Source: Lysobacterales bacterium PRO7
GTDB taxonomy: Bacteria; Pseudomonadota; Gammaproteobacteria; Xanthomonadales; Rhodanobacteraceae
DNA length: 64,000 nucleotides
Assembly (NCBI GenBank): GCA_021404785.1
Contig: QWHH01000009.1
Coordinates: forward strand, 1-64,000
Direction: 5' to 3'
A program made the position numbers and the translations under genes. Positions 2,365 through 52,520 of the stretch are shown here, piece after piece (positions within the stretch are counted from its first letter, which is position 1; every line of letters starts with the position of its first letter). The notes under the pieces are model-generated. The model was not told the origin of the DNA. It worked only from the letters and a program-made list of their open reading frames with translations, and did no database searches.

Positions 2365-2458
2365 TGCATTCATCCATGAATGCGAAGATCAAACAGCGTC
2401 CATCCTTGGACGCACTTTTCAACAAGAGCGTGCGATCATCCGTGGCCGCACTTTCCAA
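2365..2458 (+). repeat. Dispersed CATCC-hairpin repeat, locus 1 (three hairpins)
   Basis: Three successive hairpins fill the slyX-DUF2058 gap: GCATTCATCCATGAATGC (2366-2383), GCGTCCATCCTTGGACGC (2396-2413) and an imperfect GCGATCATCCGTGGCCGC (2432-2449). The first two are joined by GAAGATCAAACA, and the last two are each followed by ACTTT-type tails ending in CAA. The same layout occurs at 8311-8371 and 52463-52520 (inverted) and 50633-50690 (same orientation). The array stops only about 10 bases before the next start codon, so it probably covers that gene's ribosome entry region. Confidence 0.85.
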
Positions 2459-2468
2459 ATAAATCTAC

Positions 2469-2987
2469 ATGTCCGAATCATTGCGCGATCAATTGCTCAA
2501 GGCCGGCTTCGCCGCGAAGCCGAAAGAGTCGCCGAAGCCTGCAGCGAAGAAGCCACCACACGCTGCCAAGCCGAAACCGGCCACGCAGGACGTCGATCTC
2601 GCGCGCGCGTACGCGCAGCGCGCGAACGTCGAACGCAACGAGCGCGAGCAGGCGCAACGCGAAGCCGAGCGCGTAGCGCGCGAGAGGAAGGAACGCAAGC
2701 AGAAACTGGCGAACCTGCTTGCGGGCAAATCGCTCAATGCAACCGATGCCGATGTAGCGCGGCATTTCCCGCACGGCAACAAGATCCGGCGCATCTATGT
2801 CACCAAGGATCAACTCGCGGCGCTCAATCGCGGCGAACTGGCCGTGGTGCAGCTGGCCGGGCGTTATCTGCTGGTGACACGCGATACTGCCTTGCAGGCG
2901 CAGTCAATACAGTCCGATGCACTTGTCCTGCTATGCGATCCGGATGCACCGGCCGAAGACGATGTGCCCGCGGACTTGATGTGGTAG
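2469..2987 (+). CDS. DUF2058 domain-containing protein
   Basis: A 172-residue protein matching the DUF2058 family (YaiL-like, sometimes called nucleoprotein/polynucleotide-associated enzyme). It begins SLRDQLLKAGF, has a long basic Lys/Ala/Arg/Glu helix (about residues 20-85, likely coiled coil and nucleic-acid binding), and ends in the conserved domain FPHGNKIRRIYVTKDQLAAL through LLVTRDTALQAQ. No enzymatic function is established for the family. No clear Shine-Dalgarno precedes the ATG, because the upstream bases belong to the hairpin repeat. Confidence 0.88.
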   Translation: MSESLRDQLLKAGFAAKPKESPKPAAKKPPHAAKPKPATQDVDLARAYAQRANVERNEREQAQREAERVARERKERKQKLANLLAGKSLNATDADVARHFPHGNKIRRIYVTKDQLAALNRGELAVVQLAGRYLLVTRDTALQAQSIQSDALVLLCDPDAPAEDDVPADLMW

Positions 2988-3064
2988 GAATTCGTGAGCG
3001 GACGCACAGCGCCTGGGGCAGGAGTAGGATAGTTTTCGCTCGCGTAATTCCGCGGGAGCAAATC

Positions 3065-4228
3065 ATGCGCCGTTCTCTTGTCGCCACGATTCTTGGATTT
3101 GCCTTCACGGTCGCCCATGCCGATCCGTTGCCACGTTTCCCCGCGAGTGCGGTGTGGAACCGCGATGTCAGTGCGCCATCGCTGAAGCATCCGAATTCGG
3201 ACAACATGATCGCCCATCTGTCGTCATTGGGGGGATGGGGCACGGGCGCGACGAATTTCCAGATCGACTTTTCGTTCTACGTGCTGCACGCCGACAACGG
3301 TATCGCGACCACGCCGGTTACCCCGTTTGGCGGTGCGAACAACTACTACTATCCCGATTGCGGCGATTTCCATACCAATCCTTCGTATGGTCCAACTCCA
3401 TTGCCGATTCCCTTGCCGCTTGGCGGTGGGATAGAGGGCACCGGGCCGGCCAATTACCCGCCAGATCCGACGCCCAGTTACACCTGCGCCAACGGCAGCA
3501 ATGACTGCCACATGCTGATCGTGCAGGGCAACACCCTGTTCGAGTCCGGCAACACCAACGTCGTCGGTGGTAACGTCCAGGCCATGTGCGCCTTGACCTG
3601 GGACTTGACTCGCGTCTATCCGCCGCAGGGGCGCGGCGATCAGTGCACGAGCACGGATGCCGCTGGATTCCCGGTCGCACCGCTGTTGTTCAACGCCGAC
3701 GAAATGTACGCTGCCGAGCAGATACCGAATGGCGATCTTGGCCACGCGATCAGATTCATCTTGCCGAACGCTCGGATGATGAAGGGCGCGTTCGTGCATC
3801 CCGCGAGTCATGCAGGAAGCCCCGGAGATACCAACGCGAATGCCGTTCCGTACGGTTCGCGCCTGCGGCTGAAATCGACGTTCAACGTCGCCGGTTTCAC
3901 CGCCGGCAATCATGCCGATGTTGGCGCTGCGGCGGATGTAGCGGCGCGGGTGATTCTGCGCACGCTGCAAAAGTACGGCATGGTACTTGCGGACGGCGGC
4001 AGCGTGCCGCTCACGGCCGAGTGGGATTGGTACACGACACACAAATGGTCGGAGTTCGGCATGAATCCGAACTCGCAAAGCGGTAGCCACCTCTTGTACG
4101 GGATTGCCGTCACCGATTTCGAGGTCGTCTACACCGGGCCGACCATTGCGCTGACCTACGACTGCGACAGCAACGGCAATCACATGACGCCCGCCGATTT
4201 CATTTTCATCGACGGCTACGATTACTGA
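3065..4228 (+). CDS. Secreted protein of unknown function with C-terminal IFIDGYDY
   Basis: 387 residues. The ATG at 3065 is chosen because GGGAG lies just upstream and because it opens a signal peptide (MRRSLVATILGFAFTVAHA, cleavage likely after AHA). The mature protein is rich in Asn, Gly, Pro and aromatic residues, has several cysteines (likely disulfides, e.g. PDCGDFH, YTCANGSNDCHM, GDQCTS) and a TAEWDWYTTHKWSEFG segment. I do not recognise an enzyme family. The last residues, DFIFIDGYDY, resemble the C-termini of the two secreted proteins at 33150-35548. It ends 9 bases from the convergent phaB gene, with both stop codons inside a small hairpin. Confidence 0.8.
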   Translation: MRRSLVATILGFAFTVAHADPLPRFPASAVWNRDVSAPSLKHPNSDNMIAHLSSLGGWGTGATNFQIDFSFYVLHADNGIATTPVTPFGGANNYYYPDCGDFHTNPSYGPTPLPIPLPLGGGIEGTGPANYPPDPTPSYTCANGSNDCHMLIVQGNTLFESGNTNVVGGNVQAMCALTWDLTRVYPPQGRGDQCTSTDAAGFPVAPLLFNADEMYAAEQIPNGDLGHAIRFILPNARMMKGAFVHPASHAGSPGDTNANAVPYGSRLRLKSTFNVAGFTAGNHADVGAAADVAARVILRTLQKYGMVLADGGSVPLTAEWDWYTTHKWSEFGMNPNSQSGSHLLYGIAVTDFEVVYTGPTIALTYDCDSNGNHMTPADFIFIDGYDY

Positions 4229-4241
4229 GCCACGTGCTCAG
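4225..4241. terminator. Short hairpin spanning both convergent stop codons
   Basis: CTGAGC-CACGT-GCTCAG is a perfect 6-bp stem. The plus-strand stop TGA lies in one arm and the minus-strand stop (TCA on the plus strand) lies in the other. There is no T run, so it may be a weak bidirectional end signal or only a barrier. Confidence 0.4.
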
Positions 4242-4984
4242 AAATCCATGAAGTAGCCGCCATTCACCGGAATGTTCGCGCCGGTGATGAAGCCTGATTC
4301 TTCAGCGCACAGGAAATCGACCACGCGCGCGATCTCGCTCGGTTCGCCCAGTCGTCCGACCGGAATGTTGGCGATGATCTGGCTGCGTACGTTTTCCGCG
4401 ATCGCTGCGACCATCGCGGTGCGGCAGTAGCCCGGCGAGACGCTGTTGACGGTGACACCCTTGCGCGCGACTTCACGCGCCAGCGCCATGGTGAAACCGT
4501 GCATGCCGGCCTTGGCGGCGGAATAATTGGTCTGGCCGAATTGGCCGGTCTGGCCGTTCACCGACGAGATGTTGACGATGCGGCCGAAGCCACGCTCGCT
4601 CATGCCCTCGACCACGGCGCGGCAGGTGTTGAACACGCCGCCGAGGTTGATGTCGATGACATCGTTCCACTGCTGCGCGTTCATCTTGCGCAGCGTGGTG
4701 TCGCGGGTGATGCCGGCGGCATTGACGAGGATGTCGATCGTGCCGTATTTGCCCTCGATCGCCTTGATCGCCTGTGCACAGCCGTCGAAATCGCCGACAT
4801 TGATCGGCTCGAAGCGGATCTGATCCCCGAACTCGGCAACTTCCTTGCCGAATTCCGCCACGCGTTCGGCGCGGCTGGCCAGATCGGCCGCAATCACGCG
4901 ACGGCCCGAACGCGCCAGGTATTTGCAGATTTCCGTTCCAAGACCGCCGATGCCGCCGGTCACCAGCGCGACGCGCTTGCTCAT
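4238..4984 (-). CDS. phaB: Acetoacetyl-CoA / 3-oxoacyl reductase (SDR), PhaB paralogue 1
   Basis: 248-residue classical short-chain dehydrogenase. It has the cofactor motif TGGIGGLG, the NAAGITRD segment, catalytic Ser in NISSVNG, the YSAAK motif and a C-terminal NGGYFMDF. These signatures (NAAGITRD, SVNGQTGQFGQTNYSAAKAGMHG split across the active site) are typical of NADPH-dependent acetoacetyl-CoA reductases that make (R)-3-hydroxybutyryl-CoA for PHB. The start at 4984 has GAGGA six bases upstream; an in-frame upstream ATG (5014) lacks this. It follows phaR on the same strand (103-base gap), and a second PhaB lies beyond phaR. FabG-like activity is the alternative. Confidence 0.85.
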   Translation of the reverse strand: MSKRVALVTGGIGGLGTEICKYLARSGRRVIAADLASRAERVAEFGKEVAEFGDQIRFEPINVGDFDGCAQAIKAIEGKYGTIDILVNAAGITRDTTLRKMNAQQWNDVIDINLGGVFNTCRAVVEGMSERGFGRIVNISSVNGQTGQFGQTNYSAAKAGMHGFTMALAREVARKGVTVNSVSPGYCRTAMVAAIAENVRSQIIANIPVGRLGEPSEIARVVDFLCAEESGFITGANIPVNGGYFMDF

Positions 4985-5087
4985 GGGGATTCCTCGCCTG
5001 TTTGATTGGCGCACCGCAAGACATTGTGCGGCGCAGCAAGCGCGCGATGGTAGGCGGCGATGGCGACGCTGTCAAACGCCGCGAGAA

Positions 5088-5573
5088 TCAGGTTTTGCCG
5101 GACTTGCCCGGCGCCGGATTGATCTGGCCCTTGCTGGCCGCGCTGAGAAAACCTTCCTGCACGGATTTCCACAGATCCAGGTTGCGCTCGGTCATGTCAT
5201 TGAGCATCGACCACGGCGTCTGACCCAGGATGTTGTTGAGCTGGCTGCGGAACTTGCCTTGCTGGTCGAGGAAGATTTGCAGGCTTTTTTCCAGATACGA
5301 ACCCATGAAGCCCTGCATGGAGTCGCCGTAGAAGCGGATGATTTGCGACAACAGTTGCGTCGTAAACATCGGCTGGCCGGTTTCTTCGTGCTCGGCGATG
5401 ATCTGCAGGAGTACGGAGCGGGTCAGGTCGTCGCCGGTCTTGGCGTCGCGTACCTCGAATTCCTCGCCATCGATGACGAGTTGCCGGACTTCCTCGAGCG
5501 TGATGTAGCTCGAAATCTCGGTGTCGTACAGACGGCGATTCGGATATTTCTTGATGACGCGGACTTGTGCCAT
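5088..5573 (-). CDS. phaR: Polyhydroxyalkanoate synthesis regulator PhaR
   Basis: 161 residues beginning with the diagnostic PHB/PHA DNA-binding N-domain, RVIKKYPNRRLYDTEISSYITLEE, here seen as KKYPNRRLYDTE and SYITLEEVRQLV, followed by the PHB-accumulation regulatory domain (IAEHEETGQPMFTTQLLSQIIRFYG). In characterised systems PhaR represses phasin and its own gene until it binds nascent PHB granules. It sits between two acetoacetyl-CoA reductase genes on the same strand. No PHA synthase gene is in the window. No strong Shine-Dalgarno is visible before the ATG. Confidence 0.95.
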   Translation of the reverse strand: MAQVRVIKKYPNRRLYDTEISSYITLEEVRQLVIDGEEFEVRDAKTGDDLTRSVLLQIIAEHEETGQPMFTTQLLSQIIRFYGDSMQGFMGSYLEKSLQIFLDQQGKFRSQLNNILGQTPWSMLNDMTERNLDLWKSVQEGFLSAASKGQINPAPGKSGKT

Positions 5574-5692
5574 GCGGCAAAGTTAGCAGAATTTGCGGCG
5601 GCGCGGTAGGGTTTTTGCTGCGCAGCAATTTTGAGGCGCGTCTTTGCGAACCTTCCCTGGTGCGTTGCCGTTCGCCATCCATGGCTCACCAC

Positions 5693-5744
5693 ATTTTCGC
5701 TGCGCGCAATGCCATTCAAGGCATTGCGCTAGCGCAGCGAAAAT
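5693..5744. terminator. Long bipartite inverted repeat between phaB2 and phaR
   Basis: ATTTTCGCTGCGC (5693-5705) pairs perfectly with GCGCAGCGAAAAT (5732-5744), and inside it GCAATGCC (5706-5713) pairs with GGCATTGC (5720-5727). That gives 21 paired positions interrupted only by a 4-base bulge (GCTA, 5728-5731) and a 6-base loop. It abuts the stop codon of the upstream phaB and ends in a short T run on the minus strand, so it is probably that gene's terminator or a 3'-end stabiliser. Confidence 0.7.
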
Positions 5745-6485
<741 letters not shown>

Positions 6486-6500
6486 TTCCCTCTCCTTTGC

Positions 6501-7316
6501 TTATGCGGAATCCGGACCGATTGTACACGCGCCGGTTTTCGTCACCGTTTGCAGCGCAGCAAGATCGAACCCGGTGACGGCATTCGACAACAGCGTGGCG
6601 ACATCGTTCGCGCCCACGACGTGTTGGCCGAGGAAGCGCAGTGCCGCGCGTAGCGCCGGAGCGGGATCAGCACGATCGACCGGACGCGCGCGATCCTGCT
6701 TGGACAATTTGCGACCCTCAGGATCCAGCGCCAGCGGCAGGTGCAGATAGGCAGGAGTCGGCAGTCCCAATAATTGCTGCAAGCGAATCTGACGCGGTGT
6801 GGAATCGAGCAAGTCGGCGCCACGCACGACTTCGGTGATGCCTTGTTCGGCGTCGTCCACGACCACGGCGAGATGGTAGGCGTACCAGCCTTCGACGCGG
6901 CGGATGACGAAATCACCGGCGTCGTCGCGCAGCCGCCACGCGGGTGCGCGCGCGGGGTCAGGCGGCGCGAAGCAGGTGCGATGGATGCCACCGAACGGTT
7001 CCAGATCGACCCTGCTGCACCAGCACGGGAAAACGTGTCCGGCTGCATCCAGACGCGCGAATGCAGTCGCATACGCATTCTCGCGGCGACTCTGCAACAT
7101 GACCGGTTCGTCCGATTCCATGCCGAACGCGGCGAGTGTTGCGAGGATGTCCGCGGCTGCGCCGGGAACCTCGCGTGGCGGATCGAGGTCTTCCATACGC
7201 ACGATCCAGGCGCCGTTTTGCGAACGCGCCCGCAGCCAGCTTCCGAGTGCGGCAACCAGTGAACCAAAATGCAGTTGTCCGGTGGGGGAGGGCGCGAAGC
7301 GACCGCGGTAAGTCAT
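6501..7316 (-). CDS. gluQ: Glutamyl-Q tRNA(Asp) synthetase
   Basis: Paralogue of the catalytic domain of glutamyl-tRNA synthetase; it attaches glutamate to queuosine in tRNA(Asp). 271 residues from the ATG at 7316 (MTYRGRFAPSPTG). The HIGH-like motif is HFGS and the KMSKS-like motif is KLSKQ. A Cys cluster (FPCWCSR, then HRTC) matches the zinc site of this family. The anticodon-binding domain of true GluRS is missing, as expected. The ribosome site is weak. It is divergent from htpX, with 71 bases between the start codons. Confidence 0.93.
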   Translation of the reverse strand: MTYRGRFAPSPTGQLHFGSLVAALGSWLRARSQNGAWIVRMEDLDPPREVPGAAADILATLAAFGMESDEPVMLQSRRENAYATAFARLDAAGHVFPCWCSRVDLEPFGGIHRTCFAPPDPARAPAWRLRDDAGDFVIRRVEGWYAYHLAVVVDDAEQGITEVVRGADLLDSTPRQIRLQQLLGLPTPAYLHLPLALDPEGRKLSKQDRARPVDRADPAPALRAALRFLGQHVVGANDVATLLSNAVTGFDLAALQTVTKTGACTIGPDSA

Positions 7317-7327
7317 ACTCGATACTG

Positions 7328-7351
7328 CTTGAATTTCATGCAGTTTACCCA
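7328..7351 (+). promoter_or_regulatory. Possible heat-shock-type promoter for htpX
   Basis: CTTGAA at 7328-7333 followed after about 14 bases by CCCAAAGT resembles a degraded sigma-32 promoter (CTTGAAA and CCCCATNT). htpX is a classical envelope/heat stress gene, which makes the idea reasonable, but the -10 match is poor. Confidence 0.28.
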
Positions 7352-7387
7352 AAGTTATTCCCCGTTCCGCCAACCTTGAGGAATCCC

Positions 7388-8272
7388 ATGTTGCGTATCC
7401 TGCTGTTTCTCGGCACCAACCTTGCGATCATGCTGGTGCTCGGCATCGTGTGCTCGATCTTCGGCATCGACCGCTGGGCTTACGGTCAGTCCGGCATCAA
7501 CCTGCAAGGCTTGCTCGTCATGTGCGCGGTGTTCGGCATGGGCGGCGCGTTCATCTCGCTGGCGATGTCCAAGACCATCGCCAAGTGGACGACGCACGCG
7601 CAGGTCATTGTCGATCCAAAAGGCGCCAACGAAATATGGCTGCTGAATACGGTCAGGCAGCACGCCGACAATGCCGGCATCGGCATGCCGGAAGTGGCGT
7701 TGTACGAATCGCCGGACATGAACGCGTTCGCCACCGGCATGAGCCGCAATCATGCATTGGTGGCGGTAAGTACTGGACTCTTGCAATCCATGAATCGCGA
7801 GCAGATTTCCGCCGTGCTCGGCCACGAAATCACGCACGTTGCCAACGGCGACATGGTCACGCTGACCCTGATCCAGGGCGTGCTGAACACATTTGTCATG
7901 TTCCTTGCGCGCATCCTCGGCACCCTGATCGAAAGCGCGCTCGGTGGCGGCCGCGACAACAACCGTGGTGGCGGCTGGGCGTATTTCCTGATCGTGATGA
8001 TCCTGCAGACCGTGCTCGGATTCCTGGCCACCATTGTGGTGATGTGGTTCTCGCGCTGGCGCGAATTCCGCGCCGATGCGGGCGGGGCAAGGCTCGGCAG
8101 CCGTGCCGGCATGATCTCGGCGCTGCAGACGCTGTCGGGCAGCCACGAATCCGGTTTGCCCAAGGCCGTGGCGGCGTTCGGCATCTCCGGCGACAGCAGC
8201 GTGGCGCGGTTGTTCATGAGCCACCCGCCGATCGAAGAGCGCATCGCCGCGTTGCGCAACGCGGCGGCGTGA
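7388..8272 (+). CDS. htpX: Zinc metalloprotease HtpX
   Basis: 294 residues, inner-membrane M48 protease for quality control of membrane proteins. The N-terminus has two hydrophobic segments (ILLFLGTNLAIMLVLGIVCSIFG and LLVMCAVFGMGGAFISLAM). The zinc motif HEITH is at residues 146-150 in VLGHEITHVANGDMV, another membrane region follows, and the third ligand is in EFRADAGGARL. The ATG at 7388 is chosen because GAGGA precedes it and the protein then matches family length. It ends in a strong terminator and a hairpin repeat. Confidence 0.95.
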   Translation: MLRILLFLGTNLAIMLVLGIVCSIFGIDRWAYGQSGINLQGLLVMCAVFGMGGAFISLAMSKTIAKWTTHAQVIVDPKGANEIWLLNTVRQHADNAGIGMPEVALYESPDMNAFATGMSRNHALVAVSTGLLQSMNREQISAVLGHEITHVANGDMVTLTLIQGVLNTFVMFLARILGTLIESALGGGRDNNRGGGWAYFLIVMILQTVLGFLATIVVMWFSRWREFRADAGGARLGSRAGMISALQTLSGSHESGLPKAVAAFGISGDSSVARLFMSHPPIEERIAALRNAAA

Positions 8273-8277
8273 GCAAC

Positions 8278-8308
8278 AAAAAAGCCGCGATCGCTCGCGG
8301 CTTTTTTA
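8278..8308. terminator. Rho-independent terminator after htpX
   Basis: AAAAAAGCCGCGA-TCGC-TCGCGGCTTTTTT: a 13-bp stem with A and T runs on both sides. It can act for htpX on the plus strand and possibly for tsf on the minus strand. Confidence 0.9.
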
Positions 8309-8310
8309 TT

Positions 8311-8371
8311 GGAAGTGCGGTCATGGATGACCGCTTTTTGATCTTGCGAACAGGGATGATCGCAAAAATTA
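8311..8371 (-). repeat. Dispersed CATCC-hairpin repeat, locus 2
   Basis: Read on the minus strand it gives GCGATCATCCCTGTTCGC, then a linker AAGATCAAAAA, then GCGGTCATCCATGACCGC and the tail ACTTCCAA. This is the same order, linker and tail as locus 1. It lies between convergent htpX and tsf. Confidence 0.85.
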
Positions 8372-8374
8372 CGT

Positions 8375-9250
<876 letters not shown>

Positions 9251-9361
9251 GGTGAACCTCGTGCGTTGTGACGCGCCGATATGCGGGCGCGTCGAGTGGA
9301 TTTCAAATGATCGTGCCATCATGCGGCATGCGCATGACGGCAGTGATGCGACGTAGCCGGA

Positions 9362-10294
9362 TCAGACTGCCGCGTCCTTGTCGGTCGCTTCGTTCTCGGC
9401 AACTTCGGCTTCGGCGCGGGCCAGGCCGGCCTCATCGCCAGCCTCCTTCTTCGGCGCGGGTCTGCGCGGAGCAGCCTTCTTCGCGACCGGCTTGCGCGGC
9501 GCCGGCTTGTTGCGGCGGTCGTCGCGCTCGCGTGCGGCGGGCTTGGCGATCGGGTTGCCCTCGGCATCGAGTTCGACGAACTCGTCCTTGGCCGTGGCGG
9601 CGGTGATCGGTGCGGCGGCCTTGCCCTCGAGCACGGAGTCGGCGATCGCGCGCGTGTACAATTGCACGGCGCGGATCGCGTCGTCGTTGCCGGGGATCGC
9701 GTAATCGACCAGCGACGGATCGTAGTTGGTGTCGACCACGGCCACGACCGGAATGCCGAGCTTCTTGGCTTCCTTCACGGCGATGTCCTCATGACCGATG
9801 TCGATGACGAACAGCGCGTCCGGCAGGGCGTTCATGTTCTTGATGCCGCCGAGGGACTTTTCCAGCTTTTCCTTCTCGCGCAGCAGACCCATCACTTCGT
9901 GCTTGACCAGCTTGTCGAAGCTGCCGTCGGTGGCCATCGCCTCGATTTCCTTCAGGCGCGAAACCGACTGCTTGACGGTGCGGAAGTTGGTCAGCATGCC
10001 GCCGAGCCAGCGCTGGCTGACGTAGGGCATGCCGCAACGCACGGCTTCATCCTTGATCGCGTCGCGCGCCGAGCGCTTGGTGCCGACGAACAGGACGGTG
10101 CCGCGCTTTTGCGCCAGACCCGACACGAAATTGGTCGCGTCGGTGAACAGGGGCAGGGTCTTTTCCAGGTTGATGATGTGGATCCTGCCGCGCGCGCCGA
10201 AAATGTACGGCGCCATGCGCGGGTTCCAGTAGCGGGTCTGATGGCCGAAATGCACGCCGGCTTCCAGCATCTGGCGCATGGTGACTTGAGTCAT
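9362..10294 (-). CDS. rpsB: 30S ribosomal protein S2 with long C-terminal extension
   Basis: 310 residues from [19 protein letters not shown], with [30 protein letters not shown] and [22 protein letters not shown], all standard for S2. The usual protein is about 240-270 residues. Here about 70 extra C-terminal residues are low complexity ([20 protein letters not shown], then [12 protein letters not shown] and an acidic end), probably disordered and basic then acidic. The start ATG has GGAG upstream. Transcription probably begins at the promoter at 10472-10499, giving a leader of roughly 170 bases. Confidence 0.97.
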
Positions 10295-10471
10295 GGGATG
10301 TACTCCAAAAAGGGACACCACCGCTGTGACGAGCGGCGAGTCCGGGGTTAGAACCTCCACGTCCCCAACTTTGGCGACTTCGTGTCCAGGCGGCGTAGCG
10401 CCTGTCCGAAGCACCCCGACAAAGGTATCGAGACGTGTGCGGATTTGCTCCCGGGATGGGAGCGGTCACGA
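10295..10471 (-). promoter_or_regulatory. Long rpsB 5' leader, candidate S2 autoregulation region
   Basis: The gap between the predicted promoter and the rpsB start is about 170 bases, long for this window. It contains a nested hairpin (CTTCGG, CAGGCG ... CGCCTG, CGAAG) in the middle. rpsB leaders of gammaproteobacteria are known to bind S2 and repress rpsB-tsf; whether this one carries those motifs is inference. Confidence 0.35.
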
Positions 10472-10499
10472 ATTCTACAGGGTTTTCAGGTCGTTGCAA
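10472..10499 (-). promoter_or_regulatory. Sigma-70 promoter of rpsB-tsf
   Basis: On the minus strand TTGCAA (10499-10494), a 16-base spacer and TGTAGAAT, whose -10 TAGAAT is at 10477-10472. The extended -10 TG strengthens it. Confidence 0.6.
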
Positions 10500-10502
10500 A
10501 GC

Positions 10503-14991: not shown

Positions 14992-15805
<814 letters not shown>

Positions 15806-45152: not shown

Positions 45153-45163
45153 AAATGGTCCGG

Positions 45164-45511
45164 TTAGCGCGCTGGGGAGACGAGATCGGGCTCGGGCCGG
45201 TTGATCTCGCCGTAATCGGCCGGAAGGCAGGCGTAAAACAGGTTCACGTTCTCCGCTCGCAGTGCGGCGATCAGGGCTTCGGCTTGGGCCTCGTCGGCCA
45301 TGAACTCGACCAGCACCGGTACATCGCCGGCGAGTTCGAAGAAATGCTGCTCGTGCATGCGGCCGTGACGACCGAAACCGGCGATGGCACGGAACGCTGA
45401 GCCGCCGTGGATGCCGCGGGCCTGTGCGAATTCGAGCAGCCATTCGTACATCAGCACGCTGCCATGCTTGCGATTCTCGTAGGTGTAAAAACGCAGATGG
45501 ATGCCTTTCAT
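45164..45511 (-). CDS. DUF190 domain-containing protein, CrcB partner
   Basis: 115 residues: LRFYTYENRKHGSVLMYEWLLEFAQARGIHGGSAFRAIAGFG in parts (RFYTYENRKHG, RGIHGGSAFRAIAGFG) matches the DUF190 family, which has a PII-like fold. Such genes often neighbour crcB and here it starts 9 bases after the crcB stop, so it lies under the same fluoride riboswitch. Its role in fluoride resistance is not established. Confidence 0.9.
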   Translation of the reverse strand: MKGIHLRFYTYENRKHGSVLMYEWLLEFAQARGIHGGSAFRAIAGFGRHGRMHEQHFFELAGDVPVLVEFMADEAQAEALIAALRAENVNLFYACLPADYGEINRPEPDLVSPAR

Positions 45512-45520
45512 GGGAGAGCC

Positions 45521-45907
45521 TCAGGCGCGGAAGAGAATTCGCATCAGGAGCAGGCCCGCCAGCGTCATTGCCAGCGATCCGAGCAGGTGCACGGAAACGG
45601 TCGCGACCGCCCATGCGTATTGCTGGCGCAGGAACAAGGTCACGGTTTCGGCGGAGAAGGTGGAAAACGTGGTCAGGCCGCCGCAGAACCCGGTGGTGAT
45701 GAACAGGCGCAGTTCCGGCGACAGGCTCTGGAACTGGGTGAACACGCCCAGTGCGCAGCCGATGATGAAACCGCCGAGCAGATTCGCAGCGAGTGTGCCA
45801 AGCGGCAGGGTCGGCAGCAGCGGATTGAACCAGATGCCGAACAACCAGCGCAGCACCGCACCGGCGAAGGCGCCTATGCCGACGGAAAACACGGATGCGA
45901 AATTCAT
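45521..45907 (-). CDS. crcB: Fluoride ion channel CrcB/FluC
   Basis: 128 residues with four hydrophobic segments. The signature TGFCGGLTTFSTFSAE holds the fluoride-path Phe and Thr residues, and GAVLRWLFG and NLLGGFIIG are also typical. It forms a dual-topology dimeric channel that exports fluoride. GGGAGAGG directly precedes the ATG. A fluoride riboswitch and switching hairpin occupy the leader, and a DUF190 gene follows. Confidence 0.95.
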   Translation of the reverse strand: MNFASVFSVGIGAFAGAVLRWLFGIWFNPLLPTLPLGTLAANLLGGFIIGCALGVFTQFQSLSPELRLFITTGFCGGLTTFSTFSAETVTLFLRQQYAWAVATVSVHLLGSLAMTLAGLLLMRILFRA

Positions 45908-45980
45908 ACCTCTCCCGGACAGCGGTTCAATCCGGAAGTGCAGATACGCGCAGCGGGTGCCGCGAGAGATGCTCGTGGCA

Positions 45981-46074
45981 ATGCCTGCGGGTATCCGGAT
46001 CCCGGATACTCAAGCAGGCATCATCAGCCTTGCGGCGGTTCACCCCGAGGGGCGGGAGGAATGCCATCTCCCTT
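45981..46074 (-). promoter_or_regulatory. Fluoride riboswitch (crcB motif) with switching hairpin
   Basis: On the minus strand the aptamer starts at 46072 with GGGAGATGGCATTCCTCCC (P1 side and loop), then a GC hairpin (CCCCTCGGGG), TGAACCGCC, GCAA, GGCTGATGATGCCTGC, which matches the crcB RNA layout including the GATGGCATTCC and CTGATGATGCC cores. The 3' part ATGCCTGC (46021-46014) can instead pair with GCAGGCAT (45988-45981), enclosing a second perfect stem, GTATCCGG / CCGGATAC (46009-45991). The two folds exclude each other, giving an expression platform. There is no T run, so control may be at translation or by Rho; crcB starts 73 bases later. Confidence 0.88.
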
Positions 46075-46123
46075 GCTACGCCGCGATGATAACGCAGTCA
46101 CCGATGCAGCCGTCAAGCATCGA

Positions 46124-46360
46124 CTAACCAGGTTGCGCGCCGCCGAGAAGCGCCTTGAGCAGCGCGAGGACTTCTTCCTTGGTGCCCATCACCGAGATGT
46201 GGTGCTCGCGCGGGATATCGGTACCCAGATTGACGGCGTAGCCCTGGCCGGCATCGTTGCCATCGTCGTCCAGGCGCGGGTAGGTTTCCACCTTGCCTAC
46301 GTAGACGATGCTGTTGGCGTCGAGGTAGCGTCCGTCGGGAAGTTTCAGCCAGCGTTGCAT
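46124..46360 (-). CDS. Small conserved-looking protein of unknown function
   Basis: 78 residues with a strong GGAGG ribosome site, so it is very likely expressed. The sequence (WLKLPDGRYLDANSIVYVGK, then YPRLDDDGNDAGQGYAVNLG and a final amphipathic helix EEVLALLKALLGG) looks like a small beta-rich domain with a C-terminal helix. No family recognised and no signal peptide. It is the last gene of a three-gene minus-strand run with a putative zincin and a GNAT protein. Confidence 0.75.
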   Translation of the reverse strand: MQRWLKLPDGRYLDANSIVYVGKVETYPRLDDDGNDAGQGYAVNLGTDIPREHHISVMGTKEEVLALLKALLGGAQPG

Positions 46361-46386
46361 GGGAAGTCCTCCGTGTGATGCGCAGG

Positions 46387-46860
46387 CTAGCCGCAGGCCT
46401 GCGCGGGTGCAAGCGGCAGCAGGCCGCGCTCACTAAGCCAGGCGCGCGCATCCTCGGCATCGCTCTCGAACCAGGCGCGCGTCGAGCCAAGGCGGAACGT
46501 GTAGCCCCAGGCGTCCATGTCGGCCATCAAGCGCGTGCTGCCAATGCCGGGGAGCTCATCGGCGAGCAGGATCTGCAGGTAGCAGGTTGCGTCTTCTTCG
46601 ATTTGCGATTCCGACGCATCGGTATGGATGTGCGCACGTTTTTCCGGGGCTGCGACGATCAGGTGACAGGCTTCGTGCAACAGCGAATGCACGGGCGTAT
46701 CTGCACGTGCGTAAACGGTTGCGCCGATGATGCCGGCTTCGGGTTCGCCCCAGTAGCTGCCGGGAATGGTCGCGTCGTCGGCGATGCGGACCAGCATCAA
46801 TCCGTAGCGCTGCAGCAGATCTTCCGCCGTGCCGGGCGCAAGGTCGGCCAACAGCAGCAC
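46387..46860 (-). CDS. Putative HExxH zinc metallopeptidase, ImmA/IrrE-like layout
   Basis: 157 residues from GTG at 46860, chosen because TGAGG of the upstream gene's stop region forms its ribosome site 7 bases away; longer starts are possible. HSLLHEACHLI contains a perfect HExxH, and about 28 residues later SQIEEDATCYLQILLADEL offers Glu residues in the position of the third ligand of ImmA/IrrE-type gluzincins. There is no signal peptide, so cytoplasmic. Substrate unknown. It is coupled to the GNAT gene upstream. Confidence 0.7.
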   Translation of the reverse strand: MLLLADLAPGTAEDLLQRYGLMLVRIADDATIPGSYWGEPEAGIIGATVYARADTPVHSLLHEACHLIVAAPEKRAHIHTDASESQIEEDATCYLQILLADELPGIGSTRLMADMDAWGYTFRLGSTRAWFESDAEDARAWLSERGLLPLAPAQACG

Positions 46861-46867
46861 GCGGGCC

Positions 46868-47485
46868 TCAGTGCGCGGTGCCGGTGCGGGCAGGTGCAGC
46901 AGGCGCGGTGCCGTGGGCGCGCTCTCGCAACCATGACTGGTTCGGCAGCTTTGCCGTGGGGCCATGCAGATAGTTGTCGCGCACGAATGCGTAGCTGCAC
47001 AGTTCCTTGACCAGCAGGGAAACGCGCTTGCCGATACCGGGCATCAGCTGCTGGCCGGCTTCCTGGAAGCCCCAGGTGCCGTGGAACAGCACCGAAACGT
47101 CGTCGCGCGGTTCGAGGAAGACTTCGCAGGCAAGCAAGGGCACGCGCACTTCGGCGAAACTGGTGACGTCGGCGTAGAAGACCCGGCCCAGTCCCAGGCC
47201 ACGGTAGGGGCGGGCAATGACGATGCGATCGATGTAGAGGAATTCCGGATAACGTTCGCGGAACCAGCGGAAATTCGGACTCGCGTAATCGGCATCCTCG
47301 CGCAACGCGATCAGGAATCCGGCGGCATGGCCGTCGATTTCAGCCACGCGGAAGTAGGCAGCGACACGTTCCAGTGCGCGCAGTTGAGCCATGTCCAGCG
47401 GCAGGATCGTCGGACCCGCGGCGTTGTTGAGCGCAAGCACGGAATCCAGATCCTGCGCCTGCACGTCGCGGATGGTCAGCGTCAT
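46868..47485 (-). CDS. GNAT-family acetyltransferase
   Basis: 205 residues from ATG at 47485 (GGAGGGACG upstream). N-terminal TIRDVQAQDLDSVLALNNA is the usual first strand and helix of GNAT proteins. FLYIDRIVIARPYRGLGLGRVFYADV contains the acetyl-CoA P-loop (R-G-x-G-x-G type). EVFLEPRDDVSVLFHGTWGFQEAG follows. The C-terminus is extended by an Ala/Pro/Thr-rich tail. Substrate unknown. It heads the three-gene minus-strand run ending at 46124. Confidence 0.88.
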   Translation of the reverse strand: MTLTIRDVQAQDLDSVLALNNAAGPTILPLDMAQLRALERVAAYFRVAEIDGHAAGFLIALREDADYASPNFRWFRERYPEFLYIDRIVIARPYRGLGLGRVFYADVTSFAEVRVPLLACEVFLEPRDDVSVLFHGTWGFQEAGQQLMPGIGKRVSLLVKELCSYAFVRDNYLHGPTAKLPNQSWLRERAHGTAPAAPARTGTAH

Positions 47486-47644
47486 GTTTTCGTCCCTCCG
47501 GAATTTCGCGACGCGAATCGTGGCCCGCGCCTTGGTATGTGCGTCATTATCGCACGCACGGCGCGGCAAGGTCATGGCCTTTGCGTGGCATTCTCGTTAA
47601 ATGCGTGTGACTTCCCGCAGGTTGCGCGTGGCACGTGTGCGCAT

Positions 47645-48814
47645 ATGATGGCGAGCATGCGCCTGGGTTCCCTCAATCATGTGCAGTTGCTGCGTTACGC
47701 CGGCCTGTTCACCTGGGCCTGCGTCGGCATTCCCTTGCTGCGGCGCTACTGGCAAAGCGAAGACGGCTACACCCGCATCGAACTGGCCGGCTGGTGGTTG
47801 AGCTATCTCGCGTTCGGCCTGAGTTACTGGGCGATCACCCGCGACCTGGGCAAACGCTATCGCTGGCAACTGCAATTGCCGATGCTGGCGGTGCTCAACG
47901 CAGCGGCAATCGGCATCGGTTATTTCAGCCACAGCGGGCTGTCCGGAATCCTGCTGTTGGTGATCGCCGGCGTACTGCCGTGGCTGCTGCCGCTGTGGGC
48001 GGGCGTGGCCTGGCTGATCCTGCAGAATTTTTCGCTGGTGCCGGTATTCATCTATCGCGTCGAAGGCTTCGACTGGTTCGACGCGTTGTTGCAAAGCGGG
48101 CTGTACATCGGCTTTTCCGGCTTCACCTTCGTTACCTCGCTGGTCGCGCGCCAGCAGGCGGATTCGCGCGAGGAGCAGCGGCGCCTGAATTCCGAATTGC
48201 GCGCCACGCGCACCTTGCTCACGGAATCCAGCCGCATCGGCGAGCGCATGCGCATCTCGCGCGAGCTGCATGATCTGGTCGGTCATCACCTGACCGCGCT
48301 GAGCCTGAACCTGGAAGTCGCCAGCCACCTGGTTTCCGGCAATGCGCAGGAACACGTGCGCCAGGCGCAAAGTGTGGCGAAGCTGCTGCTCAGCGATGTG
48401 CGTGAAGTCGTCAGTCAGTTGCGCGAGGACGACGCCATCGACCTGACCGAGGCGCTGAAGACGCTGGTTGAAGGCGTGCCCGGCCTGGCCATCCATCTGG
48501 AACTGCCGCCGCGGTTCGCGGTGGACGACCCGCGCCGCGCGCAGGTACTGTTGCGCTGTGCGCAGGAAATCATCACCAATGCCGTGCGTCATGCCAATGC
48601 GCGCAACCTGTGGCTGCGCTTCGATCGCTCCGGCAGCGAACTGGCGATCCATGCGCGCGACGATGGCCGTGGCGTGGATGAATTGCGCCAGGGCAATGGC
48701 CTGACTGGCATGCGTGAACGCCTCGCCCAGATCGGCGGGCGCCTGAACATCACCACCGCTCGCAATTCCGGTTTTGCGCTGGATGCGTGGCTGCCACTGG
48801 AGTCCGTGCGATGA
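47645..48814 (+). CDS. Sensor histidine kinase, HisKA_3 type
   Basis: 389 residues. The N-terminal half has about six hydrophobic segments without a large external loop, so it probably senses the membrane or an intramembrane signal (DesK/LiaS-like). The dimerisation-phosphoacceptor helix is RISRELHDLVGHHLTALSLNLE with His209. The ATPase domain shows QEIITNAVRHANARNLWLRF, DDGRGVDELRQGNGLTGMRERL. Start candidates at 47645, 47648 and 47657 lie close together. It overlaps the response regulator by ATGA. Confidence 0.9.
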   Translation: MMASMRLGSLNHVQLLRYAGLFTWACVGIPLLRRYWQSEDGYTRIELAGWWLSYLAFGLSYWAITRDLGKRYRWQLQLPMLAVLNAAAIGIGYFSHSGLSGILLLVIAGVLPWLLPLWAGVAWLILQNFSLVPVFIYRVEGFDWFDALLQSGLYIGFSGFTFVTSLVARQQADSREEQRRLNSELRATRTLLTESSRIGERMRISRELHDLVGHHLTALSLNLEVASHLVSGNAQEHVRQAQSVAKLLLSDVREVVSQLREDDAIDLTEALKTLVEGVPGLAIHLELPPRFAVDDPRRAQVLLRCAQEIITNAVRHANARNLWLRFDRSGSELAIHARDDGRGVDELRQGNGLTGMRERLAQIGGRLNITTARNSGFALDAWLPLESVR

Positions 48815-49455
48815 CCGTATCCGTCTGCCTCGTTGATGACCAGACCCTGGTGCGACAGGGCATCCGCTCCTTGCTGGAACTTTCCGACGACATCCGTATC
48901 GTCGCCGAGGCTGCCGATGGCGCGCAGGCGGTCGAGATGATCCCGCGCGCCAAACCCGATGTCGTGCTGCTCGACATGCGCATGCCGGGCATGTCCGGGC
49001 TGGATGTGCTCAATGCGCTGGCGGAGAAAAACGCCTTGCCACCGACCATTATCCTGACCACGTTCGATGACGATCAACTGGTGTTGGCCGGCATGAAAGC
49101 CGGCGCGCGCGGTTATCTTCTGAAGGACGTGTCGCTCGAGCAACTCGTGGATGCAGTCAAGACGGTCGCGGGTGGCGGTTCGTTGGTCGCGCCGGTGGTC
49201 ACCCAGCGCCTGTTGACGGGCTTGGAGCGCATGCACAACGACTTCACCAGCCTGGACCGGCCCGATCCCCTGACCGAGCGCGAAACCGAGATCCTGCGCC
49301 TGATGGCGGGCGGTTACAGCAACAAGGAAATCGCCAATTCGCTGGGCGTGGCCGAGGGCACGGTCAAGAACCACGTTTCCAACATCCTGTCCAAGCTGGG
49401 CGTGCGCGATCGCACCCGGGCCGTGCTCAAGGCTTTTGAACTGGGAATCGTATGA
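48811..49455 (+). CDS. NarL/LuxR-type response regulator
   Basis: 214 residues. Receiver domain: VCLVDDQTLVRQGIRSLLE, phosphoacceptor Asp55 in VVLLDMRMPGMSGL, TTFDDD and GYLLKD. C-terminal LuxR HTH: LTERETEILRLMAGGYSNKEIANSLGVAEGTVKNHVSNILSKLG in parts. It is the cognate partner of the kinase (ATGA overlap). The gene next downstream, a membrane-anchored SRPBCC protein 66 bases away, is a possible target or co-transcribed effector. Confidence 0.94.
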   Translation: MTVSVCLVDDQTLVRQGIRSLLELSDDIRIVAEAADGAQAVEMIPRAKPDVVLLDMRMPGMSGLDVLNALAEKNALPPTIILTTFDDDQLVLAGMKAGARGYLLKDVSLEQLVDAVKTVAGGGSLVAPVVTQRLLTGLERMHNDFTSLDRPDPLTERETEILRLMAGGYSNKEIANSLGVAEGTVKNHVSNILSKLGVRDRTRAVLKAFELGIV

Positions 49456-49521
49456 ACCGCGATTCCCGCGCACGGGCTTTTCCAGTACCATTTGCCGTCT
49501 GTTTTTAGGGAGACGCCCGGA

Positions 49522-50577
49522 ATGACCCGCCTGCTCGAAGTTCTCGTTGCCCTGGCCATCGTTTTCGTGTTGGCCGTCGTGTTCGCCATCGCCTTGCCGA
49601 GTCATGGCCATGTCGAGCGATCGGTCACCGTCAGTTCGCCCGCGCGGCAGATCTTCGACGTGGTCAACGGTTTCCGCACCTATCCGTCGTGGACCTCGCT
49701 GACCGGTTACGACCCGCATGTGCAGATGACCTATGAAGGCCCGGCCATGGGTGCGGGTGCCAAGGTGTCGTGGACCAGCGCCAATGAAACGATCGGTAGC
49801 GGCAACTACACCGTTGCCGCGAATCCCGCGGCCGAGCAGGACAAGTCGGTGACATGGGACGTGCAGAACAACTGGCGCGGCAACGACAAGCGCTTCAGCT
49901 TCGACATCGAGCCTTCCGAGAACGGCAAGACCTCGAAGGTGACGATGGCGTACGACGTCGACTTCGGGTGGAACCTGCTCGCGCGCGTCTCCGGCCTGTA
50001 CCTGCAGGGCGATCCGGCCACGCAGATGTCGTTCCAGCTCTCGCGTTTGCAGAACATGCTGGCCACGTTCCCGACCGTCGATTACAAGGATCAGAACATC
50101 CAGATCGTGGATGTGGCCCCCGTGCCGGTGTTGTTCGTGTCGACCACCGCCAAGCGCACGCTCGACGACGTCGCCGATGCGACGAACAAGGCGATGGACC
50201 AGATCAACGCCGTGATCAAGAAGGAAAAGCTCACGGCCACCGGACCGCGCCGCACCATTACCACGAACTGGGGCGACGAGAACTACGACTTCGACGTCGC
50301 CGTGCCGGTCGACCGCGCCGATGCGCAGGTCGCCGATCCGGTCAAGACCGGCACCGGCTATGGCGGCAAGGCGCTGGAGACCTCGTTCACCGGTTCTGCA
50401 GCGCAACTGCCGCTGATGCGCCTGGTGCTCAAGGCCTATGCCTACACGCACGGCTACCTGTTCGACGAGTCCTCCGAAGGCAACGGCCGCTTCTTCGACG
50501 AGAAGACCACCACCGATCCGAATGCCGGTGACGACCAGCAGACCTACAACGTGTACCTGCCGATCCAGACACAGTAA
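49522..50577 (+). CDS. Membrane-anchored SRPBCC protein with GyrI-like C-terminal domain
   Basis: 351 residues from ATG at 49522 (AGGGAGACG upstream). One N-terminal membrane helix (LLEVLVALAIVFVLAVVFAIAL). An SRPBCC/polyketide-cyclase-like domain occupies about 30-185 (VERSVTVSSPARQIFDVVNGF, YPSWTSLTGYDP, GAKVSWTSAN). The second half (VDVAPVPVLFVSTTAKRTLDD, TTNWGDENYDFDVAVPV) resembles GyrI-like effector-binding domains. Such a hydrophobic-ligand cavity outside the membrane may bind a lipid or antibiotic; unknown. A strong terminator follows. Confidence 0.82.
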   Translation: MTRLLEVLVALAIVFVLAVVFAIALPSHGHVERSVTVSSPARQIFDVVNGFRTYPSWTSLTGYDPHVQMTYEGPAMGAGAKVSWTSANETIGSGNYTVAANPAAEQDKSVTWDVQNNWRGNDKRFSFDIEPSENGKTSKVTMAYDVDFGWNLLARVSGLYLQGDPATQMSFQLSRLQNMLATFPTVDYKDQNIQIVDVAPVPVLFVSTTAKRTLDDVADATNKAMDQINAVIKKEKLTATGPRRTITTNWGDENYDFDVAVPVDRADAQVADPVKTGTGYGGKALETSFTGSAAQLPLMRLVLKAYAYTHGYLFDESSEGNGRFFDEKTTTDPNAGDDQQTYNVYLPIQTQ

Positions 50578-50592
50578 GCTTCTTTGGGTTTG

Positions 50593-50631
50593 CGCAAACG
50601 GGTGGCTTTATGCCACCCGTTTGCGTTTTAT
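50593..50631 (+). terminator. Strong Rho-independent terminator
   Basis: CGCAAACGGGTGGC (50593-50606) and GCCACCCGTTTGCG (50612-50625), a perfect 14-bp stem with a TTTAT loop, followed by TTTTAT. It ends the two-component/SRPBCC transcript. Confidence 0.92.
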
Positions 50632-50632
50632 C

Positions 50633-50690
50633 AGCAGTCATCCCTGATCGCGAAGATCACAAAGCGGGCGTCCATGCCCGCACTTTTCAA
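50633..50690 (+). repeat. Dispersed CATCC-hairpin repeat, locus 4
   Basis: GCAGTCATCCCTGATCGC, linker GAAGATCACAAA, GCGGGCGTCCATGCCCGC and tail ACTTTTCAA, in the same orientation as locus 1. It directly follows a terminator and lies about 100 bases before the ABC ATPase gene. Confidence 0.85.
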
Positions 50691-50794
50691 TTTTGGCGGG
50701 AACTTTTTCTTAACGACGTTGTATTTCTGCCGGCGCCTGTGCTTTCGCATCAGCGCCGGATGGATGAATGCAATCAACGAGCGGTGACATCACG

Positions 50795-51733
50795 ATGATC
50801 GAAACCCGGCAATTGACCAAACGCTACGGCGACCTGACTGCGGTCGACGGCATCAGTTTCAAACTCGAACCGGGCCGCGTGCTCGGCTTCCTCGGCCCGA
50901 ACGGCGCCGGCAAATCCACGACCATGAAGATGATCGCCGGCTTTCTCGCGCCGACCTCTGGCAGTGCCAGCGTGTGCGGGCACGATGTCGTGGACGACGC
51001 GATCGCCGCCAAGCGCATGCTGGGCTATTTGCCGGAAGGCGCGCCGAGTTACGGCGAGATGACGCCGTTGCGGTTTCTCGACTTCGTTGCCGACGTGCGC
51101 GGGCTGTCCGGAGCGAAACGAGCGCAGCGCATCGACGACGTGATCGAGCGCCTGCACCTGAACGGCGTGCTGGAACAGCCGATCGAAACCCTGTCCAAAG
51201 GCTTCAAACGCCGCGTCGGCCTCGCCCAGGCGATCGTGCACGATCCGCAGGTGCTCATTCTCGACGAACCGACCGATGGCCTGGATCCGAACCAGAAGCA
51301 CGAGGTGCGCGCGCTGATCAATCGCTTGGCGGCCGACAAGACCATCATCGTGTCCACCCACATTCTCGAAGAAGTGCATGCGGTGTGCAGCCGCGCGATC
51401 ATCATTGCCCGCGGCCGCGTGCTTGCCGACGCCACGCCGGCGGAACTGGAAACGCGTTCACGCTATCACCAGGCGGTGTCGCTGACGGCGGCGAACATGT
51501 CTGCGGCAAAAGAAGCGCTGTCGAAAGTGGCGGATGTCGCCGCCGTGGAAATCGATCCGCAGGATCATCGCATCACCGCGTTCCCGAAACCGGGGCGGCA
51601 GATTTTCATTGCGGTCAATCAGGCATTGCAGGCGCAGGGCGTGGCGGTCAGCGAAATGCAGCTCGAAAGCGGGCGCCTCGACGAGGTGTTCCGCACGATC
51701 ACGCAGGGCAGCGGGCAGGAGGCACGCGCATGA
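50795..51733 (+). CDS. ABC transporter ATP-binding protein (GldA-type)
   Basis: 312 residues. Walker A GPNGAGKST (about 34-42), signature region TLSKGFKRRVGLAQAI, Walker B VLILDEPTDGLDP, and the H-loop STHILEE. The C-terminal 90 residues form the extra domain seen in GldA/CcmA-like and drug-exporter ATPases. It is coupled by ATGA to the permease, and a GldG-like and a DUF4340 protein follow. That four-gene layout is that of the gliding-associated ABC type, widespread also in non-gliding bacteria. Confidence 0.92.
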   Translation: MIETRQLTKRYGDLTAVDGISFKLEPGRVLGFLGPNGAGKSTTMKMIAGFLAPTSGSASVCGHDVVDDAIAAKRMLGYLPEGAPSYGEMTPLRFLDFVADVRGLSGAKRAQRIDDVIERLHLNGVLEQPIETLSKGFKRRVGLAQAIVHDPQVLILDEPTDGLDPNQKHEVRALINRLAADKTIIVSTHILEEVHAVCSRAIIIARGRVLADATPAELETRSRYHQAVSLTAANMSAAKEALSKVADVAAVEIDPQDHRITAFPKPGRQIFIAVNQALQAQGVAVSEMQLESGRLDEVFRTITQGSGQEARA

Positions 51734-52464
51734 GCAACATCGTCACGGTCTTCAAACGGGAATTGTCGAGCTACTTCGCTACGCCCGTCGCTTACGTGTT
51801 CATCGTGATCTTCCTGCTGCTCGCCGGCACGTTTACGTTCTACCTCGGCAATTTCTACGAGCGCGGCCAGGCCGATCTGCTGCCGTTCTTCAATTTCCAT
51901 CCCTGGTTGTATCTGTTCCTGGTTCCGGCCGTGGGCATGCGCTTGTGGTCGGAGGAGCGCAAGAGCGGCACGATCGAACTGCTGCTGACGATGCCGATCA
52001 CGATGTGGCAGGCGGTCGCGGGCAAGTTCCTCGCCGCATGGGCGTTCATCGGCATCGCGCTGGTGTTCACGTTCCCGATCTGGATTACCGTCAATTACCT
52101 CGGCTCGCCCGACAATGGCGTGATCCTGGCCAGCTACATCGGCAGTTTCCTGATGGCCGGGGCCTTCCTCGCCATTGCTTCGTGCATATCGGCGTGCACG
52201 CGCAACCAGGTGATCGCGTTCATCCTCACGGTCGTCGTGTGCTTCGCGTTCCTGCTCGCCGGATTCCCGCTGGTGCTGGATTTCTTCGCGGCGTGGGCGC
52301 CGCAGGGCGTGGTTGACGCGATTTCGGGATTGAGCTTCCTTGATCATTTCGCATCGATCAGCAAGGGCGTCGTGCAGTTGCGCGACCTGATCTACTTCGG
52401 ACTCACCATCGCGTTCTGGTTGTATGCCAGTGCAGTGGTGATTGACCTGAAAAAAGCCGATTGA
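51730..52464 (+). CDS. ABC transporter permease (GldF-type)
   Basis: 244 residues with six hydrophobic segments. VFKRELSSYFATPVAYVFIVIFLL is the N-terminal amphipathic region and first helix of ABC-2 permeases, and LWSEERKSGTIELLLTMPIT is the highly typical cytosolic coupling segment. GldF-like length. It overlaps the ATPase gene by 4 bases. A hairpin repeat begins exactly at its stop codon and separates it from the GldG-like gene. Confidence 0.92.
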   Translation: MSNIVTVFKRELSSYFATPVAYVFIVIFLLLAGTFTFYLGNFYERGQADLLPFFNFHPWLYLFLVPAVGMRLWSEERKSGTIELLLTMPITMWQAVAGKFLAAWAFIGIALVFTFPIWITVNYLGSPDNGVILASYIGSFLMAGAFLAIASCISACTRNQVIAFILTVVVCFAFLLAGFPLVLDFFAAWAPQGVVDAISGLSFLDHFASISKGVVQLRDLIYFGLTIAFWLYASAVVIDLKKAD

Positions 52465-52520
52465 GAAGTGCGGCCAGGATGACCGCTTCTTGATTCTCGC
52501 GATCATGGACGATCGCATAA
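52463..52520 (-). repeat. Dispersed CATCC-hairpin repeat, locus 3, inside the Gld-type operon
   Basis: On the minus strand: GCGATCGTCCATGATCGC, linker GAGAATCAAGAA, GCGGTCATCCTGGCCGC and tail ACTTCTCAA. It is opposite in orientation to locus 4 only 1.8 kb upstream. It lies between the permease and GldG-like genes of one probable transcript, so it would appear in the mRNA. Confidence 0.85.

Follow-up and report, generated by a model that had tools for sequence, protein, structure and literature searches.

Repetitive extragenic palindromic sequences (REPs) that accompany REP-associated tyrosine transposases (RAYTs, or TnpA-REP) are described, in the available portions of two papers (PMC2817692, PMC8266576), as short GC-rich hairpins which occur in many copies, are mostly extragenic and are often clustered. 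According to the available part of a further paper (PMC3733652), REPs tagged with GTAG or CGTC lie mostly in unidirectional and convergent gaps near upstream stop codons and may supply stop codons; they also enter open reading frames (ORFs), many of which serve DNA synthesis and repair. In the same part, no dedicated transposase is known for the CGTC REPs, including dRS3, RPE-4 and RPE-6, head-to-tail pairs are negligible for the CGTC families and absent or under-represented for most of the GTAG ones, and untagged REP families are mentioned. Here we describe a repeat of about 60 bp with four copies in the first 64,000 nucleotides of contig QWHH01000009.1 of Lysobacterales bacterium PRO7 (this whole stretch is the window). 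It is dispersed over one bacterial family, its sites are filled or empty at the same gene junctions in different genomes, its units occur in tandem, and its stems covary around a constant loop and tail. The loci very probably represent a non-autonomous REP-like palindromic element of the Rhodanobacteraceae, an untagged head-to-tail hairpin pair copied in trans, which we regard as adding a new branch to a known type of genomic repeat and not as a novel type of system.

The element shares with the RAYT-associated REPs the short GC-rich hairpins and the many dispersed, mostly extragenic and often clustered copies. In contrast to them it has no GT(A/G)G head, its hairpins form a fixed pair of the same orientation, no RAYT was found in its own genome, and the 30 copies of that genome are fewer than the usual hundreds. 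With the CGTC REPs it has in common the preference for gaps near upstream stops, some copies within ORFs and the lack of a known transposase, whereas the CGTC tag and the CCA tail are missing and its pairs are head-to-tail. By this comparison, the element would fit the picture of the tagged REPs except for the absent tag and the fixed head-to-tail pair. The available portions of PMC10969869 and PMC2229807 describe the Rickettsia palindromic elements (RPE) as in-frame inserts in unrelated conserved genes which encode a conserved peptide. Going by these descriptions, the RPE are the closest match for the in-frame copies of our element, which likewise lie in unrelated conserved genes and prefer one open frame; unlike it, they measure about 105-150 bp and have terminal inverted repeats, whereas the present element measures about 60 bp, has two small separate hairpins and is mostly intergenic. 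Palindromes inside proteins were already reported for Rickettsia and for the REPs of several free-living bacteria, as the accessible parts of PMC10969869, PMC2229807 and PMC3733652 state, and the Xanthomonas rows of the Nunvar paper, of which a part was available, contain GTAG-headed REPs only. A literature search by pieces of the sequence and of the peptide returned nine papers, which contained no more than a single 12-base string each and of which none concerned this repeat by title or abstract; likewise, no title or abstract on repeats in Rhodanobacter, Dyella, Luteibacter, Xanthomonas or the Xanthomonadales described the element. The ends of IS200/IS605-type insertion sequences carry two hairpins in one orientation, left and right. 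Miniature elements of this type resemble the present one in the two same-orientation hairpins and the right end TCAA; no full-length relative whose hairpins enclose a transposase gene was noticed, and none was searched for.

Written in one orientation, the unit reads T-GCGNTC-RTCCNT-GANCGC-GAAGATCAAAAA-GCGGCC-ATCCNT-GGCCGC-ACTTTTCAA, that is, hairpin 1, the linker GAAGATCAAAAA of 12 bases, hairpin 2 and the fixed tail ACTTTTCAA. Both hairpins have 6-7 bp and a TCCN loop and point in the same direction. In the flank profile of the aligned copies, hairpin 1 is preceded by a T-rich stretch with a consensus near TTTATTTTTGCG, and hairpin 2 by CAAAAA. The linker alone matched six times in the window against 4.2 expected, which is not significant. 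The linker together with the start of hairpin 2 gave 19 matches in the genome against none for the reversed pattern, although three of the 19 (L015, L016, L019) were discarded as chance after reading. A covariance model was built from 14 copies of the own genome, with two copies whose first hairpin is decayed (L013, L018) kept out of the seed. The model detected 30 copies at E < 0.002 in this genome (2.81 Mb), 16 of them non-seed, and the dispersed REP-like hairpin family that a preliminary description had recognized in the window is therefore far from restricted to it.

The model was also applied to 60 relatives at E up to 0.1. With the own genome included, the element occurred in 31 of the 37 family genomes, namely in every one of the 17 from the own genus and in 14 of the 20 from other genera. 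Outside the family it was found in 4 of 24 genomes, with one weak match each. Copy counts per genome are lower bounds, as no more than 88 candidates were scored; G008, with at least 86, comes close to this limit. In a sample of the order (n = 200, E up to 1e-4), 23 of 34 listed family genomes matched versus 2 of 166 others, 155 match-free genomes being counted without names; none of the eight listed genomes of genus g10 matched. A 34-base pattern with one free base, searched in named genomes, returned 21 stretches in Rhodanobacter, Dyella, Fulvimonas, Frateuria and less precisely filed metagenome-assembled genomes. We infer that the family carrying the element is the Rhodanobacteraceae. A 62-base query had no match in plasmid and phage collections, where short diverged copies could escape it. 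No Rfam 15 family matched the element in the window, and in 14 loci of the own genome the only matches to overlap a copy were sub-threshold ones (isrK, Leu_leader) at L001.

Comparison of orthologous gene junctions revealed filled and empty sites. The gap at 52459 between the GldF-like and GldG-like genes holds the element in the own genome, G009, G007 and G002, measures only 9-14 bases in G006, G003, G010, G005 and G001, and contains a different palindromic repeat instead in G012 and G015. The copy at 50631 was absent, as judged by eye, in all 17 relatives with readable gaps (that of G013 partly masked), among them G009 despite flank identities of 93-96%. The copy at 2365 is common to the own genome and G009 and decayed in G002, G011, G015, G013 and G008; G016 and G012 have another repeat in this gap. 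Further filled/empty pairs were found at other gene junctions among those compared. The presence of unrelated repeats in the same gaps suggests that these are permissive sites. As separate observations, repeats headed by CGTCAT (e.g., CGTCATTCC...GGAATGACG), similar to CGTC-tagged REPs, were seen in L252, L257, L282, L283 and L295, which correspond by orthology to the window gaps near 52465-52540 and 2365-2468. In the orthologue of window 50578-50789 (L251), where the own genome carries the element, a third type of repeat was seen in G009, GCTGAGCGTAG...CTACGCTCAG with CTTCGAC cores.

The inner stem bases had been described as changing on both arms together, and this was borne out by strong covariation in three alignments. 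Among the 14 seed copies, 7 of 14 pairs varied on both sides and 97.4% of the cells paired. In 123 distinct copies 11 of 14 pairs covaried (95.7% paired) and in 86 distinct copies 13 of 14 (96.4% paired), these two model-aligned sets being fitted to the structure and partly overlapping. In each case none of 500 shuffles was as high. Across copies the loops are thus not random around freely changing stems: the stems covary and the TCC loop is mostly kept. Pairing was similar in every gene context, with 95.6% in copies whose loop reads TCC in the sense of the gene (TCC-sense), 95.0% in the opposite orientation (GGA-sense), 94.8% in convergent, 96.1% in divergent and 97.8% in other positions, and the TCC loop was kept alike across contexts and orientations. 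It reached 94.4% within ORFs (23 copies) and 95.8% outside (159 copies). A loose comparison made compensated changes appear commoner in ORFs (22/64 versus 54/239), but it mixed tandem copies and two different recJ sites; a strict same-site comparison, with one mixed group dropped, left no difference, the change being compensated in 4 of the 19 pairs that had changed in ORFs and in 32 of the 107 elsewhere. Because pairing, loops and compensated changes are independent of context, no transcribed untranslated context is singled out, contrary to the prediction for a host RNA function. The covariation is real, yet it is no proof of host RNA selection, and the selection on folded RNA or DNA that the preliminary description read from the stems does not follow from a pairing of 94.8-97.8% everywhere. 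Transposase recognition, hairpin-templated repair and selection are each a possible source of it.

For the survey of locations, 215 model matches in 182 loci, which are biased to strong matches, were reduced to 182 distinct copies without duplicates, and genes were called with a simple codon-based caller and not taken from a curated annotation. Gaps between co-directional genes contained 109 copies (76 TCC-sense, 33 GGA-sense); the others were in convergent (15) or divergent (13) gaps, inside an ORF (29), partly overlapping one (12) or at a contig edge (4). Grouping by shared flanks, which merges two different recJ sites, gave 84 sites: 34 TCC-sense, 21 GGA-sense, 9 convergent, 5 divergent, 9 inside an ORF, 5 with partial overlap and 1 at an edge. 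Accordingly, 75 of 84 independent sites lie outside called ORFs, five of these partly overlapping one, and the intergenic excess is plain, given that called coding sequence makes up 93.6% of the window. The distance from the upstream stop codon is at most 8 nt for hairpin 1 in 18 of 31 TCC-sense co-directional sites and at most 12 nt for hairpin 2 in 8 of 20 GGA-sense ones, and at some GGA-sense sites the element end TTGA contains the TGA stop. A tRNA gene lies no more than 150 nt away from sixteen of the 182 copies, some of which have tRNA genes on both sides. A bias of orientation was considered and rejected: the raw copies numbered 76 versus 33, but the independent co-directional sites 34 versus 21 (p 0.10), and the 41 TCC-sense versus 23 GGA-sense sites obtained by adding those in ORFs (p 0.03) are too weak to build on. 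Tandem arrays of units occur with a spacing of 60-66 bp. Three tandem units were seen near a contig end between a tRNA-Thr gene and a tuf-like start (EF-Tu by eye; L032, G000:C5:138818-139009), and a further copy is located immediately 3' of an sX13 small RNA match (48.4 bits, gathering 50; L014 / L027, G000:C2:64809-64870).

Of the 29 copies in ORFs, 25 lie in called ORFs longer than 400 nt; the four in ORFs below 400 nt were excluded from the frame count. All 22 TCC-sense copies are read in the frame which gives EDQKAAI through the linker, with substitutions, and all three GGA-sense copies in one common frame; in these counts, copies carried by the same gene in different species are not independent of one another. 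The choice is partly forced by the element, because one of the three TCC-sense consensus frames contains TGA. Ten ORFs were named by an NCBIfam scan (ilvE, gcvP, fdhA, mutS, recJ, uppS, leuD, hrpA, phzF-like and amtB), the leuD match, a fragment, being below the cut-off; for the other ORFs, the assignment relied on visual inspection or on shared flanks. The copies in amtB and in L126 are N-terminal, and translation may actually begin downstream of them. In the own genome, copies occur in recJ (C8:232111) and at the 3' end of uppS (C18:71749). At one position of MutS, 9 of 30 genomes encode an additional 15-19 residues, mostly 16 (48 nt), and at least three changes are forced by the starred branches of the tree, with six on the best tree (quick method). 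Where the insert lies, the solved MutS, FdhA and GcvP proteins lack 16, 15 and 12 residues, respectively, and the best solved relative of RecJ leaves this stretch unaligned. Two recJ genes of the genus (L039, L191) carry a copy at different places, as judged by eye. In Dyella sp. EPa41, four head-to-tail 60-bp units lie in frame in an FdhA ORF (L106:2748-5852) and form a 20-residue protein repeat.

The four loci and nine hairpins of the preliminary description are all present in the window, with the positions and orientations given there, and the loci correspond to the four copies of the element in the table below.

Coordinates of the element copies in the window; the four copies were among the seeds of the covariance model and match it by construction
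Feature	Position	Strand	Hairpins	Model E value	Remark
Element copy 1	2363..2424	+	hairpin 1 2366-2383, hairpin 2 2396-2413	5.6e-16	
Third hairpin of first locus	2429..2460 (model match)	+	2432-2449	1.18 (weak)	tail ACTTTCCAA
Element copy 2	8306..8366	-	hairpin 1 8346-8363, hairpin 2 8317-8334	4.4e-13	
Element copy 3	50631..50692	+	hairpin 1 50634-50651, hairpin 2 50664-50681	4.6e-14	hairpin 1 imperfect
Element copy 4	52459..52519	-	hairpin 1 52499-52516, hairpin 2 52470-52486	2.6e-15	

Copy 1 starts at the TAG stop of a small ORF (2149-2364) and precedes an ORF at 2469. The match of the third hairpin starts 66 bases after the first unit and joins the left arm of a hairpin 1 to the right arm of a hairpin 2. 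This locus had been regarded as expanded to three hairpins. The third hairpin is there, but rather than an expansion it is probably the remnant of a second tandem unit whose middle was lost between the two alike loops, a reading of the bases suggested by the 60-66 bp spacing of the arrays elsewhere. Copy 2 lies 3' of tsf (8375-9250, - strand), which is convergent with htpX (7388-8272, + strand), and copy 3 lies between an ORF (49522-50577, + strand) and a GldA-like ABC gene at 50768 (+ strand). Copy 4 is located between the GldF-like gene (51730-52464, + strand) and the GldG-like gene (start near 52541, + strand), and its end TTGA contains the TGA stop of the former. The RNA fold z values of the four loci were -3.84, -5.38, -2.85 and -3.50; hairpin 1 of copy 3 is absent from the minimum-energy fold. 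Elsewhere in the window, a fluoride riboswitch (46008-46080, - strand) and a t44 RNA match (10347-10459, - strand) upstream of a called ORF (9362-10294, - strand) scored above the gathering score.

A RAYT, the Y1 tyrosine transposase of classical REPs, had been proposed as mobiliser. The REP-like size of the element, its position near upstream stops and its end with stop codons agree with this, as such features are reported for REPs in the available part of PMC3733652, and PF01797 (Y1) matches at E<=0.001 were present in 18 of the 37 family genomes (those of G002, G011 and G018 below the curated cut-off). However, the own genome had no PF01797 match (controls positive in 5/14), the median copy number was lower in genomes with a Y1 match than in those without (10 versus 22), and 11 of 17 copy-rich genomes (>=20 copies) had none. 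The element model at E<=0.01 found nothing in nine family Y1 loci (L079, L080, L081, L088, L090, L093, L095, L097, L098), a part of the Y1 places found among these genomes, and six of the nine were without the linker motif. The flank profile revealed neither a GT(A/G)G tag at the palindrome foot next to either hairpin nor a terminal CGTC (TGTC, CCTC) tag, and the pair is head-to-tail rather than inverted. The mobiliser is thus probably no RAYT of the present genome, and a classical RAYT-mobilised REP is very unlikely. A post-transcriptional element whose copies are CsrA sites or sponges is a weak rival and likewise very unlikely. On the other strand the loop ANGGAY closed by C-G presumably resembles the CsrA/RsmA motif, TCC is kept in most loops with no constraint on the base that follows (C 43, A 37, G 30, T 26 in loop-1 copies with the full motif), and the own genome has a CsrA gene. 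Yet the GGA strand is not the favoured transcript, given the 34 TCC-sense against 21 GGA-sense co-directional sites, loop and stem are conserved alike in every orientation, copies also lie in coding regions and beside tRNA genes, many element-free genomes have CsrA, and the carriers G005, G007, G009, G014 and G016 (80-94% complete) gave no CsrA match.

An intercistronic RNA regulator under host selection, such as an attenuator, a weak terminator or a 3'-end stabiliser whose spread is incidental, would account for the position 3' of stop codons (within 8 nt in the 18 TCC-sense sites mentioned), for the compensated changes among same-site copies and for the terminator-like character of 50664-50681 on both strands, although the four terminator-like sites of the whole region compare with 2.0 (sd 1.6) in shuffles. 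We consider it improbable, since presence and absence differ between close species, different repeats occupy the same gap, and pairing is similar within and outside ORFs. There is a modest chance that the stem covariation is a mutational product of template switching or hairpin correction and results neither from selection nor from recognition by an enzyme. The context-independent pairing points in this direction, as do compensated changes in ORFs which alter the peptide (ilvE copy of L152), although the strict comparison yielded few cases in ORFs (4 of 19 changed pairs, one of three groups). Such a process accounts for the arms and not for the constant loops, linker and tail; it is compatible with a REP-like mobile element and does not exclude it.

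Several observations weigh against the REP-like element copied in trans. Neither a mobiliser nor a new insertion between nearly identical strains was found. The flanks are T-rich on the left and A-rich on the right and showed no clear target-site duplication, the boundaries of the element being approximate. Several sites are common to multiple species, so much of the spread is old, and the filled/empty sites taken alone could include losses by deletion. On the mutS tree, which leaves 12 of its 27 inner branches without resolution, the insert label is somewhat clustered (31 of 500 shuffles as low), and few gains plus losses are possible; since the net gain in mutS is not a clean 60 nt, host bases were lost on insertion or trimmed later.

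For the REP-like element we propose that a trans-acting factor would read the two folded hairpins on single-stranded DNA and copy the element. Such a hairpin-reading factor acting in trans would explain the constant loops and tail with covarying stems. Intercistronic gaps and tolerant protein stretches would be the places spared by selection, tandem units would grow and shrink through recombination or slippage, and an effect on operon transcripts, if any, would be secondary. More speculative, and rather unlikely, is the idea that a non-Y1 single-strand hairpin-reading enzyme repeatedly targets the same or neighbouring spots in repair genes (mutS, recJ), thereby writing one shared peptide of about 20 residues into unrelated core proteins. 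The element offers a clean REP-like case, with a fixed double hairpin, no tag, no cognate transposase found and read-through copies in core enzymes, and covariation of the arms in such repeats need not imply a selected RNA. As some genera carry the insert at one and the same mutS site and others lack it there, gain, loss and effect of the insert are testable.

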